NCBI RefSeq assembly: GCF_026965535.1
Contig: NZ_CP114039.1
Coordinates: forward strand, 3,906,001-3,970,000
DNA length: 64,000 bases
Origin: Corallococcus sp. NCRR
GTDB lineage: Bacteria; Myxococcota; Myxococcia; Myxococcales; Myxococcaceae
Direction: 5' to 3'
In this document: in pieces, positions 7,717 through 54,800 of the stretch
Position numbering within the stretch: position 1 is the stretch's first letter
Layout of the letters: each line of letters begins with the position of its first letter
Made by a program: the position numbers and the translations under genes
Notes under the pieces: generated by a model
What the model was told of the DNA's origin: nothing
Databases searched by the model: none
Seen by the model: the letters and a program-made list of their open reading frames with translations, nothing else

Positions 7717-8412
7717 ATGCGGTCCATGCCGCGCGCTCCTGTTTCCGCCCCCGTGTTGCTGCCGGACGCCTTCACGCCCGCCGCGCGCCGCGCCCTCGTG
7801 CGCGCGGACCCCACGCTGGGCACGCTCTTCAAGAAGATAGGGCCGTTCCGCTTCGAGCGGTCCCCGCTGCACAGCCCGTTCGAAGCGCTGGCGCACTCCA
7901 TCGTCTACCAGCAGCTCCACGGCCGCGCGGCGGCGACCATCTTCGGCCGCGTCTGCGAGCGGGTGGGGCAGGGCAAGGGCTTCACGCCCCAGAAGCTGCT
8001 CGCGCTGCCGGACGCCACGCTGCGCGAGGCCGGGCTGTCCGCGAACAAGCTGCTGGCCATCCAGGACCTGGCGCGCAAGACGGTGGACGGCACGGTGCCG
8101 CCGCTCGCGCGCGTGCGCCGCATGTCCGACGCGGACCTCATCGAGCACCTCACGCAGGTGCGCGGCATTGGCCAGTGGACCGTGGAGATGCTGCTCATCT
8201 TCCGCCTGGGCCGGCCGGACATCCTCCCCGTGGACGACTACGGCGTGCGCAAGGGCTTCATGGTGCTGCACAACCTGAAGGAACAGCCCAAGCCCAAGGC
8301 GCTGCTCGCGTATGGCGAGCGCTGGCGGCCCTATCGCAGCGTGGTGAGCTGGTACCTGTGGCGGGCGGCGGACAAGCCCGTGGGCACCTTCGCCCCGCCG
8401 GAGGACAGCTAG
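7717..8412 (+). CDS. DNA-3-methyladenine glycosylase 2 family (AlkA-like)
   Basis: 231 residues with the HhH-GPD fold. SPFEALAHSIVYQQLHGRAA is the usual entry motif, the helix-hairpin-helix is LTQVRGIGQWTVEMLLIF, and the catalytic Asp lies in RPDILPVDDYGVRKG. The enzyme would excise alkylated purines such as 3-methyladenine to start base excision repair. The AlkA N-terminal domain is missing, as in many short bacterial versions. Two in-frame ATGs (7717 and 7726) and an upstream GTG are possible starts. A GGGG stretch ten bases before 7717 favours that one, but the choice is not secure. Confidence 0.9.
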   Translation: MRSMPRAPVSAPVLLPDAFTPAARRALVRADPTLGTLFKKIGPFRFERSPLHSPFEALAHSIVYQQLHGRAAATIFGRVCERVGQGKGFTPQKLLALPDATLREAGLSANKLLAIQDLARKTVDGTVPPLARVRRMSDADLIEHLTQVRGIGQWTVEMLLIFRLGRPDILPVDDYGVRKGFMVLHNLKEQPKPKALLAYGERWRPYRSVVSWYLWRAADKPVGTFAPPEDS

Positions 8413-48010: not shown

Positions 48011-50371
48011 TCAAGGCCGGAGCATGTTCAAGGGGGCCGCCCCCGTGAGGTCCTCCACGCTGTCGTAGAGCAGCTGCCCGACGTAGTTGAAGTTGTGCGC
48101 CCAGGCGCCCGGGTCCTTCTTGCTCAGCTGGTAGTTGTGGGCGGCCTTCACGAGCGCCGGTGTGAACGGCGCGAACGCGTTGGCGGAGACGGACTCGGTG
48201 GCGCCGCAGGTCCCGTTCTTGTCCGTGTCCTTGAAGAAGTACGGATTGACGTCGCCGTTGTAGCAGAGGCCGTTGCTCGTCACTCCGCGCATGGCGGTCA
48301 GCAGGCGCGCGGCCATGCCCTCCACCTCCGCCTCCAGGGACTCCGCCGTGTTCCCGTCGCCGTCGTAGTCCGACACGTGGACGAGCCGGATCTGCTCCGC
48401 CGCGCTCTGGTCCGCGTGGCATGTCTCACAGCGCTCGTTCCACACGTCCTTGATGCGGAAGGTGTGGTTGCTCTTGCCCGGGACATGGCAGCTCGTGCAC
48501 TGCACCCCGCCCATGTGCGTGAGCCGGCCCGCGTAGGTCTTGTTGGGGTACTCGTAGCCGATCCTCGCCAACGTTCCTTCGCGCGTCCCCGCGGCCGGCA
48601 GGTAGTGCACGTTCTGGAAGCGCGGCGTGCCCCCCGCGCCCAGCGCCGTATCGATGGTGGCCTTGGACGCGCGGCCGATGTGGCAGTTGGCGCAGAGGTT
48701 GTCCTGGCCCGGCAGGTTCACCGTCTTGCCGTCCGGCAGCCACGTCTGGGTGGGGACGAAGACGTCGTAGTCCGGTTCGAAGTTCTCGTGGCAGGTGGAG
48801 CACTCCAGGCCGTTGGCGGTCTCCGGCACCAGTTGCCCGACCCCGTACTGGACGAAGAAGCGGTAGCCCTGCGCGCCGCTGTGGCAGCGCGAGCAGCTGG
48901 CCTGGACGGTCTCGCTCGAATCCCAGTTTCGCGCCGCCTTGCTCGCGCCGTTGAAGTGGCCCGGATCATTGCGCACCAGCAGCGACGTGTCGAAGGGCAC
49001 GCTCAGCGCCGTGTTCAACGACTGGATGGAGTCATGCAGCAACTGGATGATGTACTTCGCGTTGTGCGCGAACGCGCCCGGGTCCACCCGTGACAGCTGG
49101 TAGTTGTACGCCGCCTTCTGCAGGCGAGGGGTCCAGCTGGCGAACGTGTTGGCCGGAGTGGTTTCGCCTTGGGCGCAGGTCCCGTCCCCATTGGTGTCGC
49201 GGAACCAGTACGGGTGGGTGTTGCCGTAGCAGAGGGGCTGGGACCGCTCCGCGCCGTACCGCTGGATGGCGGCGAGCAGCCGGTCACTCAGCCCCTGGAG
49301 CTCGTAGTAGATGCCCTCGGCGCGGTTGTTGTCCCCGTCGTAGTCCTGGTTGCGCGAGGCGATCTGCCGGATGTCCCAGGCCTTCGTGACGTCGGTCACG
49401 CCAGGGTGGCAGGTGGCGCAGGCCTCCCAGCGGACGCGCGTGGTGTGCGGGTCGTGACACTCGTTGCACTTGTCGAAGGCAGGCACGTGACGGAAGCGCG
49501 AGTCGTAGACCTGGTCCGCGTACTGGTAGCCGCCCGCGGCCTGACCGGCGAAGAGCGTCGCGCCCGCGGGGTAGTAATGGATGTTGGTGAAGCCCAGGGT
49601 CGGCGAGGCGGTGTCCTCGCCCACCACGCCCGCGTCCGCGACCTGCGCGTCGAGGTCCCTGCCCGCGGCGCGCCCCTGGTGACACACCACGCACCGCGCC
49701 TCCGGGCCCAGGCCGGTGACCTGCTTGCCCGAGGGGAAGGTGACCGAGGTCAGGCTCGCGGCGGCGCTGTCGTGGCACGTCTCGCAGCGGACCACCGAAC
49801 CCGTCGGCGCGGGGGCGTCCACCCTGCCAGGGGCGGAGCCGTCACCGCCCAGGAAGTCGATGTAGCCCTCCGAGCTGTGGCACCGCGCGCAGGTGGCGGG
49901 GACGAGGCCGTCCTCGTTCCAGTGGGAGAAGGCCTCGGCGGTGGTGTCCGCGTGCGGAGAGCCTGACCAGGCGAGGTAGTAGGGCACCTGGGCGGGGTCG
50001 ACACCGGCGTCGCCCGCGAGGCCGCTCATCACCACCACCACATGGCGCGCTTCGAGCCTGGAGCTCGTGCCGGTGACCTTGATGGCGGTCTCTCCCGCGC
50101 CCACGCCCGTCACCTGCCCGGAGCCGTCCACGGTCGCGATGGCCGGGTCCGCGCTCTCCCAGCGGTAGCCGTCGTCGGTGGCCTCGCGCGTGGTGGCGGT
50201 GAGCTGGATGGTCTGGCCCACGAGCACCGAATGCGGTCCGTCGGTGAGGACCTCCGGGTGGGGTGTCTCCAGTTTGGCGCAGGCGCTCAGCGCGCAGGCC
50301 AGGAGCAGCGGTCCGGCCAGGAGCAGGAGGGGTCGTCGCATGGGGGCCGCCTCGGGGAGAAGGTGCGTCAT
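48011..50371 (-). CDS. Decaheme c-type cytochrome lipoprotein with BIG2-like domain
   Basis: 786 residues. Lipobox LSAC31; a bacterial Ig-like (BIG2) domain about 39-115. Ten CXXCH heme sites at 161, 196, 227, 302, 318 and 493, 524, 560, 625, 649. The two sets of five have matching spacing, and each is followed by a similar end (NYQLSRVDPGAFAHN and NYQLSKKDPGAWAHN), so the protein is a tandem duplication of a pentaheme module. Predicted to sit on the outer surface. The ATG has GGAGG nine bases upstream and overlaps the previous stop (ATGA); a second ATG at 50341 would also give a good signal. Confidence 0.88.
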   Translation of the reverse strand: MTHLLPEAAPMRRPLLLLAGPLLLACALSACAKLETPHPEVLTDGPHSVLVGQTIQLTATTREATDDGYRWESADPAIATVDGSGQVTGVGAGETAIKVTGTSSRLEARHVVVVMSGLAGDAGVDPAQVPYYLAWSGSPHADTTAEAFSHWNEDGLVPATCARCHSSEGYIDFLGGDGSAPGRVDAPAPTGSVVRCETCHDSAAASLTSVTFPSGKQVTGLGPEARCVVCHQGRAAGRDLDAQVADAGVVGEDTASPTLGFTNIHYYPAGATLFAGQAAGGYQYADQVYDSRFRHVPAFDKCNECHDPHTTRVRWEACATCHPGVTDVTKAWDIRQIASRNQDYDGDNNRAEGIYYELQGLSDRLLAAIQRYGAERSQPLCYGNTHPYWFRDTNGDGTCAQGETTPANTFASWTPRLQKAAYNYQLSRVDPGAFAHNAKYIIQLLHDSIQSLNTALSVPFDTSLLVRNDPGHFNGASKAARNWDSSETVQASCSRCHSGAQGYRFFVQYGVGQLVPETANGLECSTCHENFEPDYDVFVPTQTWLPDGKTVNLPGQDNLCANCHIGRASKATIDTALGAGGTPRFQNVHYLPAAGTREGTLARIGYEYPNKTYAGRLTHMGGVQCTSCHVPGKSNHTFRIKDVWNERCETCHADQSAAEQIRLVHVSDYDGDGNTAESLEAEVEGMAARLLTAMRGVTSNGLCYNGDVNPYFFKDTDKNGTCGATESVSANAFAPFTPALVKAAHNYQLSKKDPGAWAHNFNYVGQLLYDSVEDLTGAAPLNMLRP

Positions 50372-50802
50372 GGTTGAGCGCCTCCGGAGATCCACGCCAG
50401 GAGGGTCTGGTACTCCGGGGTGTCCGCTCCATAGACGGCACCGCCGCCGTGGCCCGCGCCGGAGGCCTTGCGCAGCAGCCGGCTGGCGGAAGGGTTGGAG
50501 GTGTCCGTGAGGGAGATGACCGCCGCGTAGTCCGCGTCGGCGTCGCCCGTGAGCAGGAAGGAGGTGCTGCCCGCGGCGCCCCCTTCGCGATGGCAGCTCT
50601 GGCAGCCGGTGGTGAGGAGCGGGTGGACGTCGCTCGTGAACGACACGGTGCTTCCTCCGTCCCCTTCGCCACCGCCATCGCTGGGAGTCGCGCCGGCGTC
50701 GGCGGCGACGGGGCCTCGCTCGAAGTCCGCGCAGCCAACGGTCAGCGCGAACATCGCGGTGAGGACGGCGGCCCGTGTCTGGATGCGGGAGTCAGAACTC
50801 AT
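50368..50802 (-). CDS. Monoheme c-type cytochrome lipoprotein
   Basis: 144 residues. Possible lipobox ending at C24, an Asp/Gly-rich linker, and one CXXCH site (CQSCH, 67-71) in a PSCyt1-like domain that continues to TPEYQTLLAWISGGAQP. This resembles the heme domains fused to the barrel protein encoded upstream. The start overlaps the barrel gene by 11 bp and its stop overlaps the decaheme gene. Likely a small electron carrier between the barrel and the decaheme protein. Confidence 0.85.
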   Translation of the reverse strand: MSSDSRIQTRAAVLTAMFALTVGCADFERGPVAADAGATPSDGGGEGDGGSTVSFTSDVHPLLTTGCQSCHREGGAAGSTSFLLTGDADADYAAVISLTDTSNPSASRLLRKASGAGHGGGAVYGADTPEYQTLLAWISGGAQP

Positions 50803-53227
50803 ACGCCACCACCAGCCGGGTGAAGTCGTCCGGCGTCTCGTCTGTCTTCTCCAGGTTCCAGAACTGGAAGAGGCCGGCGCTCAAGCCCCGCCACCGTGCG
50901 ACCACGCCCACGTTGTGGCTGGAGGCGTCCTCCCGGGTGAGCGCGTTCGAGTCCAGGATGAGGCCTCGCCGGTTTCCGAAGGTGCGCAGCCCCTGGCGGT
51001 ACTGGACGTAGAGCCAGTCCGTGGGGTGGTAGCGCAGCTGGAGGTAGCTGGCGAAGTGGTAGTAGTCCGCGCCCGGCCCGCCGTAGCCCTCCGCCTCTCC
51101 TCCGGAGACATCCGCGCGCAGCAGCCCGGCGCCCAGCGAGAAGTGCTCCAGCACCGGAAGCCCGCGCGGACGCCACACCGCCACGTCCAGCGCCTGGAGG
51201 AACAGGCGGCGCCCGAATCCCAGCGAATTGAAGTAGGGCGAGTACCACACGTTGATGGGGCCCCATGCGCCGCCAAGCCTCGCCCCGACGCCCAGGCGGG
51301 TGTCCTCCAGCGGCGCCAGGTCCGACTGGAGATTGAGCACCGCGTCGGCGCGCTTCAGCCGGTAGCCGGCGATGACGTAGGCGTCGCCGGAGAGGGCGAT
51401 GGGGCCCAGACGGCGCTCCACGTTCACCGTCAGCCCCTCCCGGGCGAACACCACCGGAAGCACCCGCTGGTCGAAGCCCGCGAGGCCTCCGTAGCTGTGA
51501 TGGAAGAGCGGATCCCCGCCGAAGGGCACCAGCACCTTGCCGCCCTTGGCGAACACCTTCACCGGCCAGGTGGTCCCGCTCACCCGGTAGCCCACCTCCC
51601 AGAACTGGAGCGACAGGACCTCCAGGGTGAGGGTCACCGGGTCCTCGGCGGACTGCCGCGTCAGGAAGAGGAAGTGGTGGTAGCTGCGCAGCGCGCTCTC
51701 TCCCTCCGACTTGAAGGGGTGGTCGTTGTAGCTGACGCGCTCGTAGTTGAGGTCGAAGCGGCCGTTCAGGCTCAGCGATCCGAGGACCGGAAACGTCCCC
51801 AGTGACACGCCGCCGTGAGGGCCCGCTGGACCGTGTGGATTCGCGGGAGTGGACGGCGGTGCCGTGGGCCCCACGGCGGGCCCGGGAGCGGTGGGCGCGG
51901 GCGGAGCGGTGACCACGGCGGTGGGTGAGGGGACTCCCGTCGCGCCTGCGTCAATCCACCGGGCCAGGAGCGCCAGCTGTGTGCTGCCGGGTTCCCACAC
52001 CGCGCCGCCCGGGTGCGCGTCGCCCTTCGCGCGCTGGTAGAGGAGGCTGGTGTCGGCGGATCCGGGGACGACCAGGGGCTTCACCGAACGCAGGTGCTGC
52101 TCCGGATCCGCGTGCGTCACGTAGCGGCTGGCGCCAGCCATCCCGTCCGAGGCATGGCAGCTGGAGCAATCCGCCAGCAGCGCCTCGTGCACCTGGGGAG
52201 CGAAGCGCGGCGCGGCCGAGGCGTCCTCGGAAGTCGGGCCGGCGCTCGCGGACGCGCCGGGCCCTGGAGTAGCGCCGGGAGATGCGGATGCGCCGGTCAC
52301 CGGAGTGGCGCCGGGCGATGTGGACGTGCCGGTCACCGGAGTGGCGCCGGGAGATGCGGACGCGCCGGTCACCGGAGTGGCGCCGGGCGATGTGGACGTG
52401 CCGGGCACTGGAGTGACGCCGGGTGATGTGGACACGCCGGGCGCTGGAGTGATGCCAGGAAGCGAGGCCGCGCTGGTCACCGGATTGGCGCTGGGTGATG
52501 CGGACGCGCCGGGCACTGGAGTGGCGCCGGGAGACACTGCCGCGCCGGTCACGGGATTGGCGCCAGGAGGCGTGGTCGTGCCGGGCGCTGGAGTTGCGCC
52601 GTGAGACGCGGGCGCGCCGTCGTGGGAGGGACGTGGCGCGCCAGGGCCGGCGGAGATGGCCGGCGCGGAGGTGGAGACCCCGCGTGACTTGCCGGGCGGG
52701 GCGCCTCCTTCAATCCACCGCAGGATCGTCGCGTACTGCGCCGACTCCACCGCGAAGACCTTCTTGCCTCCGTGGAGCGTGGTGCCGGTGCCCTTCTTGA
52801 GCAGCGGGCTCTGGGCGGCGGTGGCGGGCTGCACGAAGCGCAGGGTGGCCTCGTAGTCCGCCGGCTCGCCCCGGAGCACCCAGCGGGACCGGGACGCCAT
52901 TCCGTCCGGACCGTGGCAGGACCCGCACTCCTTCTCCAGGAGGGGCCGGATGTCCTCCGCGAAGCCCGGCACGCGGGGCCGGTTCACACCCGCAGGCGTC
53001 CGCGCGGTGGGCGCGGCGTGACTCCTGGTGGCCTCCGCGGGGGACGGCGTTCCCGGGGCGGGGACGCCCGCGTCCGGCGTTGCCTGCGCGGGGGGCGGCT
53101 TGATTCCCAGCCGCTCCTGGAGCTGCCGCCGCTTCTCCTCCTGCGACTGTGCCCGCGCGGGGCCCGGGACGGACAGCACCAGCGCGCAGGCGAACAGCGC
53201 CCAGGTGCCCGGGTCAGCGACGCGCAT
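50792..53227 (-). CDS. Porin-type beta-barrel fused to two heme-c domains
   Basis: 811 residues. Sec signal (1-26), first heme domain with CGSCH (101-105), a Pro/Thr/Ala/Ser-rich linker of 12-residue repeats (about 210-330), second heme domain with CSSCH (354-358), a second Pro-rich linker, and from about 475 a transmembrane beta-barrel whose final residues VVAYEF end in Phe, as outer-membrane proteins do. A barrel plus own heme domains in one chain is rare. It should span the outer membrane and bring electrons to it. The last 14 bp of the triheme gene overlap its start. Confidence 0.85.
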   Translation of the reverse strand: MRVADPGTWALFACALVLSVPGPARAQSQEEKRRQLQERLGIKPPPAQATPDAGVPAPGTPSPAEATRSHAAPTARTPAGVNRPRVPGFAEDIRPLLEKECGSCHGPDGMASRSRWVLRGEPADYEATLRFVQPATAAQSPLLKKGTGTTLHGGKKVFAVESAQYATILRWIEGGAPPGKSRGVSTSAPAISAGPGAPRPSHDGAPASHGATPAPGTTTPPGANPVTGAAVSPGATPVPGASASPSANPVTSAASLPGITPAPGVSTSPGVTPVPGTSTSPGATPVTGASASPGATPVTGTSTSPGATPVTGASASPGATPGPGASASAGPTSEDASAAPRFAPQVHEALLADCSSCHASDGMAGASRYVTHADPEQHLRSVKPLVVPGSADTSLLYQRAKGDAHPGGAVWEPGSTQLALLARWIDAGATGVPSPTAVVTAPPAPTAPGPAVGPTAPPSTPANPHGPAGPHGGVSLGTFPVLGSLSLNGRFDLNYERVSYNDHPFKSEGESALRSYHHFLFLTRQSAEDPVTLTLEVLSLQFWEVGYRVSGTTWPVKVFAKGGKVLVPFGGDPLFHHSYGGLAGFDQRVLPVVFAREGLTVNVERRLGPIALSGDAYVIAGYRLKRADAVLNLQSDLAPLEDTRLGVGARLGGAWGPINVWYSPYFNSLGFGRRLFLQALDVAVWRPRGLPVLEHFSLGAGLLRADVSGGEAEGYGGPGADYYHFASYLQLRYHPTDWLYVQYRQGLRTFGNRRGLILDSNALTREDASSHNVGVVARWRGLSAGLFQFWNLEKTDETPDDFTRLVVAYEF
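52238..52600 (-). repeat. Coding 36-bp tandem repeats (SPGATPVTG linker)
   Basis: About 360 bp built from 36-bp units encoding 12-residue Pro/Gly/Ala/Thr repeats between the two heme domains of the barrel protein. Units alternate TSTSPGATPVTG and ASASPGATPVTG. It may work as a long flexible spacer and could vary between strains. Confidence 0.85.
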
Positions 53228-53546
53228 GGCACGCCTCGCAGTTCATGGAGCGCCAGTCCGTGGCGGTCCGTCCGTCATGGCAGCGCCCGCAGGAGCGGCC
53301 CTCCCGCATGTCCTGATGCGTGAAGCCCAGCCGGGCCTGCGGGAACGTGCCGGGGTGGCAGCTGTAGCAGTACATGGAGCCATGCCCCCAATGGGAGAAC
53401 AGCGCCGGAGCGGGCGCGGTGCGCTCCTTGAGCGGAGGCAGCCGGACGTCCTGCGGCGTGTTCACGGCGAAGATGGGCGTCGTAAACAAGAGGAGGGCGA
53501 CGAGCCCCACCCGCCACCGTCCATCGCGAGCGGAGCGCCGCTTCAT
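53214..53546 (-). CDS. Triheme c-type cytochrome (c7/c3-like)
   Basis: 110 residues: an N-terminal signal or anchor (about 12-28) and three CXXCH sites (CYSCH 60-64, CGRCH 86-90, CEACH 103-107). FSHWGH and GFTHQDM provide distal histidines, the c7/c3 pattern of Geobacter-like periplasmic shuttles. The ATG overlaps the small membrane protein stop. It should carry electrons across the periplasm from the NapC-type protein to the barrel. Confidence 0.9.
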   Translation of the reverse strand: MKRRSARDGRWRVGLVALLLFTTPIFAVNTPQDVRLPPLKERTAPAPALFSHWGHGSMYCYSCHPGTFPQARLGFTHQDMREGRSCGRCHDGRTATDWRSMNCEACHARR

Positions 53547-53740
53547 AGGGCCTTCTGCTCCTTCAAGATCTTCCAGACCGTGACGCCGTAGAGCAGGACT
53601 CCCAGCAGGACCCCGGGCACGCCCACGGCGGTGGAGATGACGAAGGTCAGGGGCGTCCAATGGAGGTAGGCAAACAGCTGGATGAGCAGCCCGGCCAGGA
53701 CGAAGAGGGCCGCCACCCGGATGCGTTTGTCGTGGCTCAT
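53543..53740 (-). CDS. Small two-helix membrane protein
   Basis: 65 residues with two hydrophobic segments (about 8-27 and 32-53) and a short basic C-terminus. The reading frame is linked by ATGA overlaps on both sides to the NapC-type and triheme genes, which argues that it is real and part of the electron-transfer unit. It may be an assembly or anchoring subunit. Family not known. Confidence 0.75.
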   Translation of the reverse strand: MSHDKRIRVAALFVLAGLLIQLFAYLHWTPLTFVISTAVGVPGVLLGVLLYGVTVWKILKEQKAL

Positions 53741-54363
53741 GGACGCGGTCGCTCCGGCAGCCAGAAGTTCTGGGCCTTCACGCCCTCCAGGTCGTGCGCG
53801 AGGTCATGACAGCTCAGGCACGAGCGGGCGCCGCTCTGGAGCTCCGCCTGGAGCTCGCGGTGCGGCCCGGCCTCCAGGTAGCCGCGCGCATCGTTGTGGC
53901 AGTGGAGGCAGTTGTCATTGGGATACGGCTGATAGAGCCGGGGCTCCGGGGGGATGGTCCCGAAGTAGTGGACCCAGACGTGCCGCAGGCCGTTGAGCTT
54001 GGCCTTCGCGTCCCCGAAGAGCGCGTAGTCCGTGTGGCAGGAGAAGCAGGTGGAGTCGCGGTTGATGAGCCGCTTCTGGTAGTGGACCGCGGCCATGGCG
54101 TTGGGGTTGTCCACGAACAGGCTCTGCCCGTAGCGCTCCATCTCGTGGCAGCCCATGCAGAACGGGGTCTGGCTGGATTCGCGCACGCCCACCGCGACCC
54201 CCGCGCCGCTGACGGCCAGCGGCAGCAGGGCCAGTCCTCCGAGCAGCACCAGGCGTCCCAGCCGATTCGCGGTGAGATGGCCCGCGGCATGGGCAATCAT
54301 CGCCACCAGCACGGCCACCGCGCTGACAATCACAATCATGAGCGTGGGCAGTGGAGCCTCCAT
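53737..54363 (-). CDS. NapC/NirT-family tetraheme quinol dehydrogenase
   Basis: 208 residues. Two N-terminal hydrophobic helices (about 5-27 and 37-60), then CMGCH (69-73), CFSCH (106-110), CLHCH (152-156) and CLSCH (182-186). Membrane-bound multiheme NapC/CymA-type proteins take electrons from menaquinol or ubiquinol and pass them to periplasmic cytochromes. It is the first gene of the six-gene overlapping set, which fits entry of electrons from the inner membrane. The terminal acceptor cannot be read from the sequence. Confidence 0.9.
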   Translation of the reverse strand: MEAPLPTLMIVIVSAVAVLVAMIAHAAGHLTANRLGRLVLLGGLALLPLAVSGAGVAVGVRESSQTPFCMGCHEMERYGQSLFVDNPNAMAAVHYQKRLINRDSTCFSCHTDYALFGDAKAKLNGLRHVWVHYFGTIPPEPRLYQPYPNDNCLHCHNDARGYLEAGPHRELQAELQSGARSCLSCHDLAHDLEGVKAQNFWLPERPRP

Positions 54364-54446: not shown

Positions 54447-54800
54447 CTACCGGGAGGGCGCACCGGCGGAGGGCGGGAGGGGGATGGGCTCCACCTTCGC
54501 TGTCTGCCCGTCCACGCGCAGGTCCAGGAGGGCATGGCCCTCCGGCGACGCATAACGCAGCCACCAGGACGACTCCCCCTGCTTCGCCATCACCAGTTCC
54601 AGCGCCGGTCCCTGGTTCCGTGCGAATGCGGCCCCCAGCCTCACCGCCTCCTCGTAGCCCACGGTGAGCGCCACCGAGGTGGGCGGTGGCGGCAGCGGGG
54701 GCGAAGGATCCGCGCGCGTCTGCATCGAGGACCCCGCGCACCCCGCGGCGCTGAGGGCGGCGAGCAGGACGGCGCGGCGCAGGGAGAACGAAGAGGTCAT
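54447..54800 (-). CDS. Hypothetical lipoprotein
   Basis: 117 residues with a lipoprotein signal ending LSAAGC, a Pro-rich stretch after it and then a mixed alpha/beta part with no known motif (YEEAVRLGAAFARNQGPALELV). The start was set at the ATG that gives a clean signal; longer readings go through a region of low coding likelihood. It lies 83 bp upstream of the NapC-type gene on the same strand and might be the first gene of that unit, but the gap leaves room for a separate promoter. Confidence 0.6.
   Translation of the reverse strand: MTSSFSLRRAVLLAALSAAGCAGSSMQTRADPSPPLPPPPTSVALTVGYEEAVRLGAAFARNQGPALELVMAKQGESSWWLRYASPEGHALLDLRVDGQTAKVEPIPLPPSAGAPSR

Follow-up and report, generated by a model that had tools for sequence, protein, structure and literature searches.

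The 64,000-nucleotide window analysed here, i.e. the whole stretch of Corallococcus sp. NCRR contig NZ_CP114039.1 between positions 3,906,001 and 3,970,000 (part of a 9.79-Mb single-contig genome), contains on its minus strand (48011-54363) six overlapping genes, which with a probability that we put at about 0.7 constitute a self-contained conduit for electrons from the quinol pool to the cell exterior. Read in order, the genes of this cassette encode a NapC/NirT-family tetraheme cytochrome, a two-helix membrane protein, a c7-type triheme cytochrome, a porin fused to two heme domains (the diheme-porin), a monoheme lipoprotein and a decaheme lipoprotein (Table 1), an arrangement of parts that an earlier note on this DNA had described and that gene calls and family hits reproduce. 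The quinone-to-surface conduit proposed in that note is well supported by the conservation of the cassette among relatives, by an OmcA/MtrC-family decaheme that occupies the terminal slot in one distantly related genome and by an OmcA/MtrC gene that lies immediately upstream of the cassette in another. Outward electron transfer is well supported, while its acceptor, its direction and the exposure of the last cytochrome at the surface are what we infer from these observations.

The heme sites can be read directly from the DNA. The CXXCH codon pattern has 22 matches in the whole window, 20 of which fall on the minus strand at 48416-54159, and in frame they yield 4, 0, 3, 2, 1 and 10 sites in the six proteins in cassette order, exactly the twenty counted previously. 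A chance origin of these motifs is ruled out, because among 100 dinucleotide shuffles of the 64 kb (mean 3.8 matches, maximum 9) none reached 22. The ratio of nonsynonymous to synonymous substitution rates (dN/dS), computed over whole genes in two comparisons each, ranges from 0.19 to 0.44 and indicates purifying selection; since all six genes stay below 0.45, they are not pseudogenes. All neighbours do overlap, as the earlier note had it, by 4, 4, 14, 11 and 4 bp, which narrows its range of 1-14 bp to 4-14 after two starts had been moved by eye (c7 to ATG 53546 from TTG 53660 of the listed open reading frame, decaheme to ATG 50371 from GTG 50395). Signal peptides and lipoboxes of the cassette proteins were also read by eye, without a predictor. 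Genes for c-type cytochrome assembly are present, and an upstream alignment read by eye exhibits no recognisable conserved promoter.

The cassette is a conserved unit. A survey of 195 Myxococcota genomes, with close forms defined by scores above 1300 bits for the decaheme, 500 for the barrel and 350 for NapC, gave the close decaheme and the close barrel an identical distribution over 16 genomes, 15 of which also have the close NapC; the exception (G007) has a contig that starts inside the barrel gene and so cuts the cassette. More distant NapC homologs occur in 48 further genomes. The six genes retain one order at 13 of the 16 loci searched (genes were called there with a simple script), two loci (L023, L029) being cut by contig ends and one (L039) rearranged, and the synteny check suggested in the earlier note therefore speaks for its reading. 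The CXXCH motifs are generally conserved in the relatives too, with a few departures: the fourth NapC site is CXXXCH at L039 and L159, the monoheme site is CXXXCH at L039, and the barrels of L039, L159 and L160 carry no heme. All 20 cassette hemes have conserved candidate distal ligands. In genome G464 the NapC protein, the two-helix protein, c7, a hemeless barrel and the monoheme protein are followed, in the terminal slot, by an OmcA/MtrC-family decaheme (453.7 bits, cut-off 209.3), and at L037 there are 7 bases between the end of an upstream OmcA/MtrC gene (396.7 bits) and the NapC gene.

The profile searches placed two of the proteins assigned to the inner membrane and periplasm in known families. 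The tetraheme protein matches PF03264 (41 bits, E 2.1e-10, cut-off 24.1) and its heme-1 motif, CXXCHEM, conforms to the CXXCHxM typical of the NapC/NirT/NrfH/CymA quinol dehydrogenases, from which it differs by a second hydrophobic segment (hydropathy analysis reveals two at the N-terminus) and by scores under the NCBIfam cut-offs of the NapC/NirT, NrfH and TorC models. Met75 and five His residues outside the CXXCH motifs are conserved in all six rows of the alignment, and the protein is likely to be a quinol dehydrogenase. A homolog of the two-helix protein adjoins NapC in 15 of the 15 searched relative loci that show NapC (14 and L159); it is probably a NapC partner. The c7 protein was recognised by the c7/nanowire triheme model TIGR04257 (53.8 bits, E 1.6e-14, cut-off 40) and by PDB 3ov0 (E 4.4e-34), the Geobacter GSU1996-type triheme protein, to which c7 is related. 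With three hemes and candidate distal ligands H52, H55 and H77, conserved in 6/6 rows, it resembles the known c7 trihemes (TIGR04257; 3ov0 and 1rwj in the PDB), but it is a single unit, whereas 3ov0 matches in four stretches. It is likely to act as a periplasmic carrier.

The diheme-porin begins with a signal-peptidase-I-like sequence ending ARA/Q. In the structure model of its C-terminal part (residues 485-811, 327 residues) DSSP delineates 17 strand elements, of which two are short and adjacent; confidence in blocks of ten residues is mostly pLDDT 67-87 in the barrel and 41-53 in the loops (61 for the whole model). The fold search with VIA identified OprO (4rjw, Z 21.3, rmsd 4.2, 290 aligned) and OprP (2o4v, Z 20.6, rmsd 4.6, 301 aligned) as the best matches, and nearly all of the best 50 matches listed, with Z from 21.3 down to 18.5, are porins by title. 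A sequence-profile search of the barrel against the PDB returned two rows only, both non-porin with E > 1. The model thus predicts a small porin of 16-17 strands and not an MtrB-like barrel of 26. The monoheme lipoprotein (lipobox TVG/C) aligns with porin heme domain 1 at 36% identity over 91 aa (E 1e-15), and one His outside the CXXCH motif is invariant in 27/27 monoheme domains of porins and lipoproteins, aligned in Python with L039 left out owing to its CXXXCH site; by sequence, all these domains form one family. A gene for a free monoheme protein adjoins each of the hemeless barrels of L039, L159 and L160, and for this reason the modules look interchangeable between a fused and a free state. 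RoxC rubber dioxygenase matches to the monoheme domains are confined to the first 134 of 812 model positions, lie far under the cut-off and were rejected. The linker joining the two porin heme domains (window 52204-52694) is a degenerate SPGATPVTGA-type repeat, whose length varies among relatives. In the barrel (window 50792-51790), His 517, 576 and 771 are conserved in 13, 13 and 12 of 13 homologs, hemeless barrels included, and might bind a metal or a heme inside the barrel.

The decaheme lipoprotein possesses a lipobox, LSA/C, with the Cys invariant in 14/14 rows, and consists of two homologous pentaheme halves (37% identical, E 3e-61), besides a Big_2 domain (PF02368, 42.3 bits), whose model superimposes on 7r3t in VIA (Z 13.5, rmsd 1.2, 78 aligned), and c7/c3 multiheme matches. 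Ten His residues outside the CXXCH motifs, five per half, are conserved, nine in 14/14 rows and one in 13/14, and a few more in 12/14; judged from the alignment, the ten are enough to give every heme bis-His ligation, with no obvious catalytic heme left open. No CXXCK motif occurs in the protein. OmcA and MtrC are lipoproteins as well, and the cassette decaheme resembles their family (TIGR03507) in its ten hemes arranged 5+5 and in sharing its terminal slot with the G464 protein; unlike them, it remained unmatched by TIGR03507 at E <= 1 (cut-off 209.3 bits), has a single Big_2 domain instead of split-barrel domains, and exhibits the 37% internal repeat. The fold search retrieved its own Ig domain, unrelated Ig-like proteins and OcwA; MtrC, OmcA and MtrB are not among the best 50 matches listed for either the barrel or the decaheme, which is uninformative. 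Four acidic DxDxDG-like loops, two per half (residues 343-357, 392-403, 668-682 and 715-726), look like calcium sites in the sequence, and two of them hold one Cys of the conserved pairs C381/C399 and C703/C722.

In the proposed mechanism, the NapC protein, with the two-helix protein as its likely partner, would oxidise menaquinol at the inner membrane, and the c7 triheme would ferry the electrons over the periplasm. The next carriers would be three homologous monoheme modules with bis-His ligation, two joined to the porin through flexible Pro/Ala-rich linkers and the third carried by the lipoprotein; they would relay the electrons through or along the ~16-strand porin, perhaps threading the barrel. 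The decaheme lipoprotein, presumably exposed at the cell surface, would gather the electrons and donate them outside the cell, for instance to Fe(III), Mn(IV), humics or another cell; that the cassette reduces metals or electrodes is likewise something we infer. A mostly aerobic predator might use such a conduit when oxygen is short, in aggregates or in waterlogged soil.

Several points weigh against this mechanism. Corallococcus is regarded as aerobic, and 7 of its 16 genomes are without the cassette. The case is built from sequence and structure prediction. A lipobox says nothing about the face of the outer membrane on which the decaheme sits; the decaheme model is weak (pLDDT 65), with heme distances unreadable from it, and OcwA, the sole cytochrome among the fold matches listed, scores near noise (Z 8.3). 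The parts also occur separately, with decaheme relatives in five more genomes without a close barrel (G183, G064, G053, G085, G093) and distant barrels in three more without a close decaheme (G068, G185, G192). Three monohemes make a thin path over the outer membrane, and the authors of the Cyc2 model hold that a heme domain would plug rather than span a 16-strand porin (PMC8406198). Finally, since L039, L159 and L160 encode barrels without a fused heme and no NapC was seen in the 18 kb of L160, the barrel may be a solute pore.

Could the electrons flow inward instead? Surface cytochromes might take electrons from Fe(II) or some other donor outside the cell and pass them to the periplasm and the quinone, as in Cyc2 or PioAB systems; a fused cytochrome-porin of ~16 strands is indeed the Cyc2 architecture, and NapC-type proteins are able to run in reverse. 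We nevertheless regard this as improbable, for a NapC on the quinol side and the exchange of the terminal protein for OmcA/MtrC are the make-up of reducing systems, and the Cyc2 consensus, AXPXFAR[Q/K][T/Y] before and PXL after CXXCH, was found in none of the eight fused porins checked. Less probable still is reductive iron uptake, with the surface decaheme reducing Fe(III), the porin admitting Fe(II) and the heme domains serving the reduction. The solute-porin fold, the hemeless barrels of three relatives and the three conserved barrel His residues, which could bind metal, would all suit such a role, but by family hits none of the six genes encodes an inner-membrane transporter or a regulator, 20 hemes would be costly for iron scavenging, and the OmcA/MtrC replacement points to respiration. 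The poorest account makes the decaheme, periplasmic or at the surface, a reductase of nitrite, tetrathionate, dimethyl sulfoxide or the like that draws on quinol through NapC and receives its substrate by way of the porin. This agrees with the usual role of NapC/NrfH proteins in feeding such enzymes and with a weak profile similarity to NrfA (8bcx, E 0.0017), but is opposed by the ten candidate distal His for ten hemes, by the replacement by OmcA/MtrC and by the lack of a molybdopterin subunit among the six genes; its NrfHA nitrite-reductase version was rejected on the missing CXXCK and the ten His. The outward conduit accounts best for the cassette.

The distribution of the cassette is patchy. 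Of 16 Corallococcus genomes, 9 have the decaheme, and of 19 genomes from the family's other genera in the same sample none has it at high score; the larger 195-genome sample adds five more carriers from the same family. In the phylum of the L039 genome, a set of 282 genomes taken from a larger group includes 3 with the barrel. The flanks of 12 compared loci represent six neighbourhoods: one site is common to six Corallococcus loci and a second one to L151 and L152, and the flanks are different again at each of L034 (Myxococcus dinghuensis), L035 (Corallococcus), L150 and L153, a difference that plain divergence may also explain between genera. The close relative G009, a non-carrier, exhibits an empty site: its flanking gene shares 97% identity with the one in the window, a gap of ~130 bases separates the ends of homology to the two flanks, and nothing in the stretch matches any part of the cassette. 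The cassette is missing from G006 and G008 as well, with a more diverged downstream side. Transfer between strains is suggested by the differing sites and the patchy presence, not by the decaheme tree: there, no single branch separates the nine Corallococcus rows from the rest (2 changes; 1 in 4% of bootstrap trees), but the critical fork is weak (84/87) and the starred branches are compatible with a single origin.

The earlier note had called such a conduit unexpected in a myxobacterium. This should be qualified for the family and order, where 21 of 59 related genomes carry an OmcA/MtrC decaheme above cut-off; the surprise remains for the genus, because none of the 16 Corallococcus genomes does (the genome studied here has no match at E <= 0.001). 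Two genomes, G064 and G183, encode distant decaheme relatives within a few kb of cytochromes with 11 and 16-22 hemes and of a hemeless protein of 478-480 aa that matches no family, a neighbourhood that looks like an ordinary porin-cytochrome cluster. Four stretches with a more distant NapC were read. In three of them (L168, L169, L170) its neighbours include an OmcA/MtrC-family gene encoding 10 CXXCH sites and another encoding 22-23; 12-heme genes are found at L168 and L170, and a hemeless 487-aa protein at L168. On the grounds of the G064/G183 clusters and the L168-L170 neighbourhoods, both types of conduit, ordinary and lean, seem to be present among related genomes. In the fourth (L171, genome G114) the tetraheme NapC (~7749-8310, minus strand) is adjoined by a small hydrophobic protein, and no other frame in the 16 kb has at least two CXXCH. 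Elsewhere, G053 (L010:682-3501 and L021:10805-14137) encodes a decaheme relative with 12 CXXCH, 34-37% identical, followed by another large gene with 12 CXXCH, and L149 (G068) has a distant barrel relative (30%) among genes with 30, 13 and 5 CXXCH, which represents a different multiheme system.

Table 1. Features of the cassette and its neighbour in the window, with the evidence for each
Feature	Position	Strand	Evidence
NapC/NirT-family tetraheme, 208 aa	53737..54363	-	PF03264 41 bits; conserved Met75 and His; hydropathy
Two-helix membrane protein, 65 aa, no heme	53543..53740	-	homolog adjoins NapC in relatives; hydropathy
c7-type triheme, 110 aa, exported (by eye)	53214..53546	-	TIGR04257; PDB 3ov0; distal His candidates
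Fused diheme-porin, 811 aa	50792..53227	-	alignment; structure model; fold searches
Porin heme domain 1, ~residues 90-178	52694..52960	-	model pLDDT 52-87 by block of ten; 27-domain alignment
Porin heme domain 2, ~residues 342-430	51938..52204	-	model pLDDT 78-92 by block of ten; 27-domain alignment
Porin barrel (predicted), 16-17 strands, residues 485-811	50795..51775	-	DSSP on model; VIA fold matches
Monoheme lipoprotein, 144 aa	50368..50802	-	homology to porin heme domain 1; lipobox by eye
Decaheme lipoprotein, 786 aa, lipobox, Big_2 and two pentaheme halves	48011..50371	-	family hits; internal repeat; conserved His
Big_2 immunoglobulin-like domain of decaheme	50072..50230	-	PF02368 42.3 bits; VIA to 7r3t
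Small lipoprotein-like gene, 117 aa, beside cassette	54447..54800	-	found in Corallococcus loci at this site

The 117-aa lipoprotein-like gene beside the cassette has a clear homolog at 5 of the 16 cassette loci searched, and three non-carrier stretches give only weak matches (21-23%), located elsewhere in them; it is probably not part of the cassette core. Other parts of the same genome encode two lipoprotein-like proteins with four CXXCH each (L072:6678-8537, ~2.78 Mb, and L073:6535-8610, ~7.84 Mb), whose matches to MtrC/MtrF-type heme domains are weak (E 0.0035 and 4e-5, respectively) and which may be other surface cytochromes; the one in L073 lies near a gene with three CXXCH. Two further loci of the genome (L070, L071) match c7, and their neighbours look like two copies of what we take to be alternative complex III, as expected of an aerobe.

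If the conduit is real, culturable predatory soil bacteria (Corallococcus, Myxococcus) can discharge electrons extracellularly, and the view of respiration at low oxygen in dense swarms and fruiting bodies would change. A small pore with a few single-heme modules would then be enough to take electrons across the outer membrane and would be easier to engineer than MtrCAB; screens for MtrA/MtrB homologs would probably miss conduits of this type. Strains that differ naturally in carrying the cassette permit a direct test.

How does the cassette relate to known systems? Like the porin-cytochrome (Pcc) systems, i.e. MtrCAB of Shewanella and OmbB-OmaB-OmcB of Geobacter, it combines in one cluster a predicted outer-membrane barrel, exported cytochromes and a putative multiheme lipoprotein, the predicted barrel and its porin fold matches corresponding to the porin-like outer-membrane protein of Pcc, and it has a NapC-type quinol dehydrogenase of the inner membrane, as is CymA. 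Unlike them, it has no 8- to 14-heme periplasmic partner of the MtrA/OmaB kind, its largest exported soluble cytochrome, the decaheme lipoprotein aside, being the c7 triheme; the decaheme falls outside the OmcA/MtrC model, two monoheme domains are fused to the porin, and the modelled barrel has 16-17 strands, not the 26 given for MtrB-type barrels in PMC8406198. The "Mtr/Omb-type" label used in the earlier note is a loose comparison and holds only in part. Ordinary pcc clusters are known in Anaeromyxobacter, according to PMC4245776. Among the titles and abstract starts listed, a scope that leaves outside most subscription journals and all bioRxiv preprints, no description of the cassette in Corallococcus or Myxococcus was found.

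For Cyc2, PMC8406198 describes a predicted 16-strand porin and names the OprO/OprP structures 4rjw and 2o4v. The diheme-porin shares with it, by prediction on both sides, the 16-strand OprO/OprP-like fold as well as an N-terminally fused c-type heme; it differs by two heme domains, another motif and long linkers, by the unfused barrels of some relatives, and by its clustering with NapC, c7 and the decaheme. Membership in the Cyc2 family was rejected on the consensus motif. For each of Pcc and Cyc2 one defining feature was looked for and not found, and the cassette is for this reason filed under neither; it is a lean variant of the porin-cytochrome kind. Tentatively, at somewhat less than even odds, it could represent a separate class of conduit, in which a ~16-strand OprO/OprP-like porin is wired by interchangeable bis-His monoheme modules rather than by a many-heme wire in a large barrel, and which couples to either of two kinds of surface decaheme and forms a transferable cassette in aerobic predatory myxobacteria.

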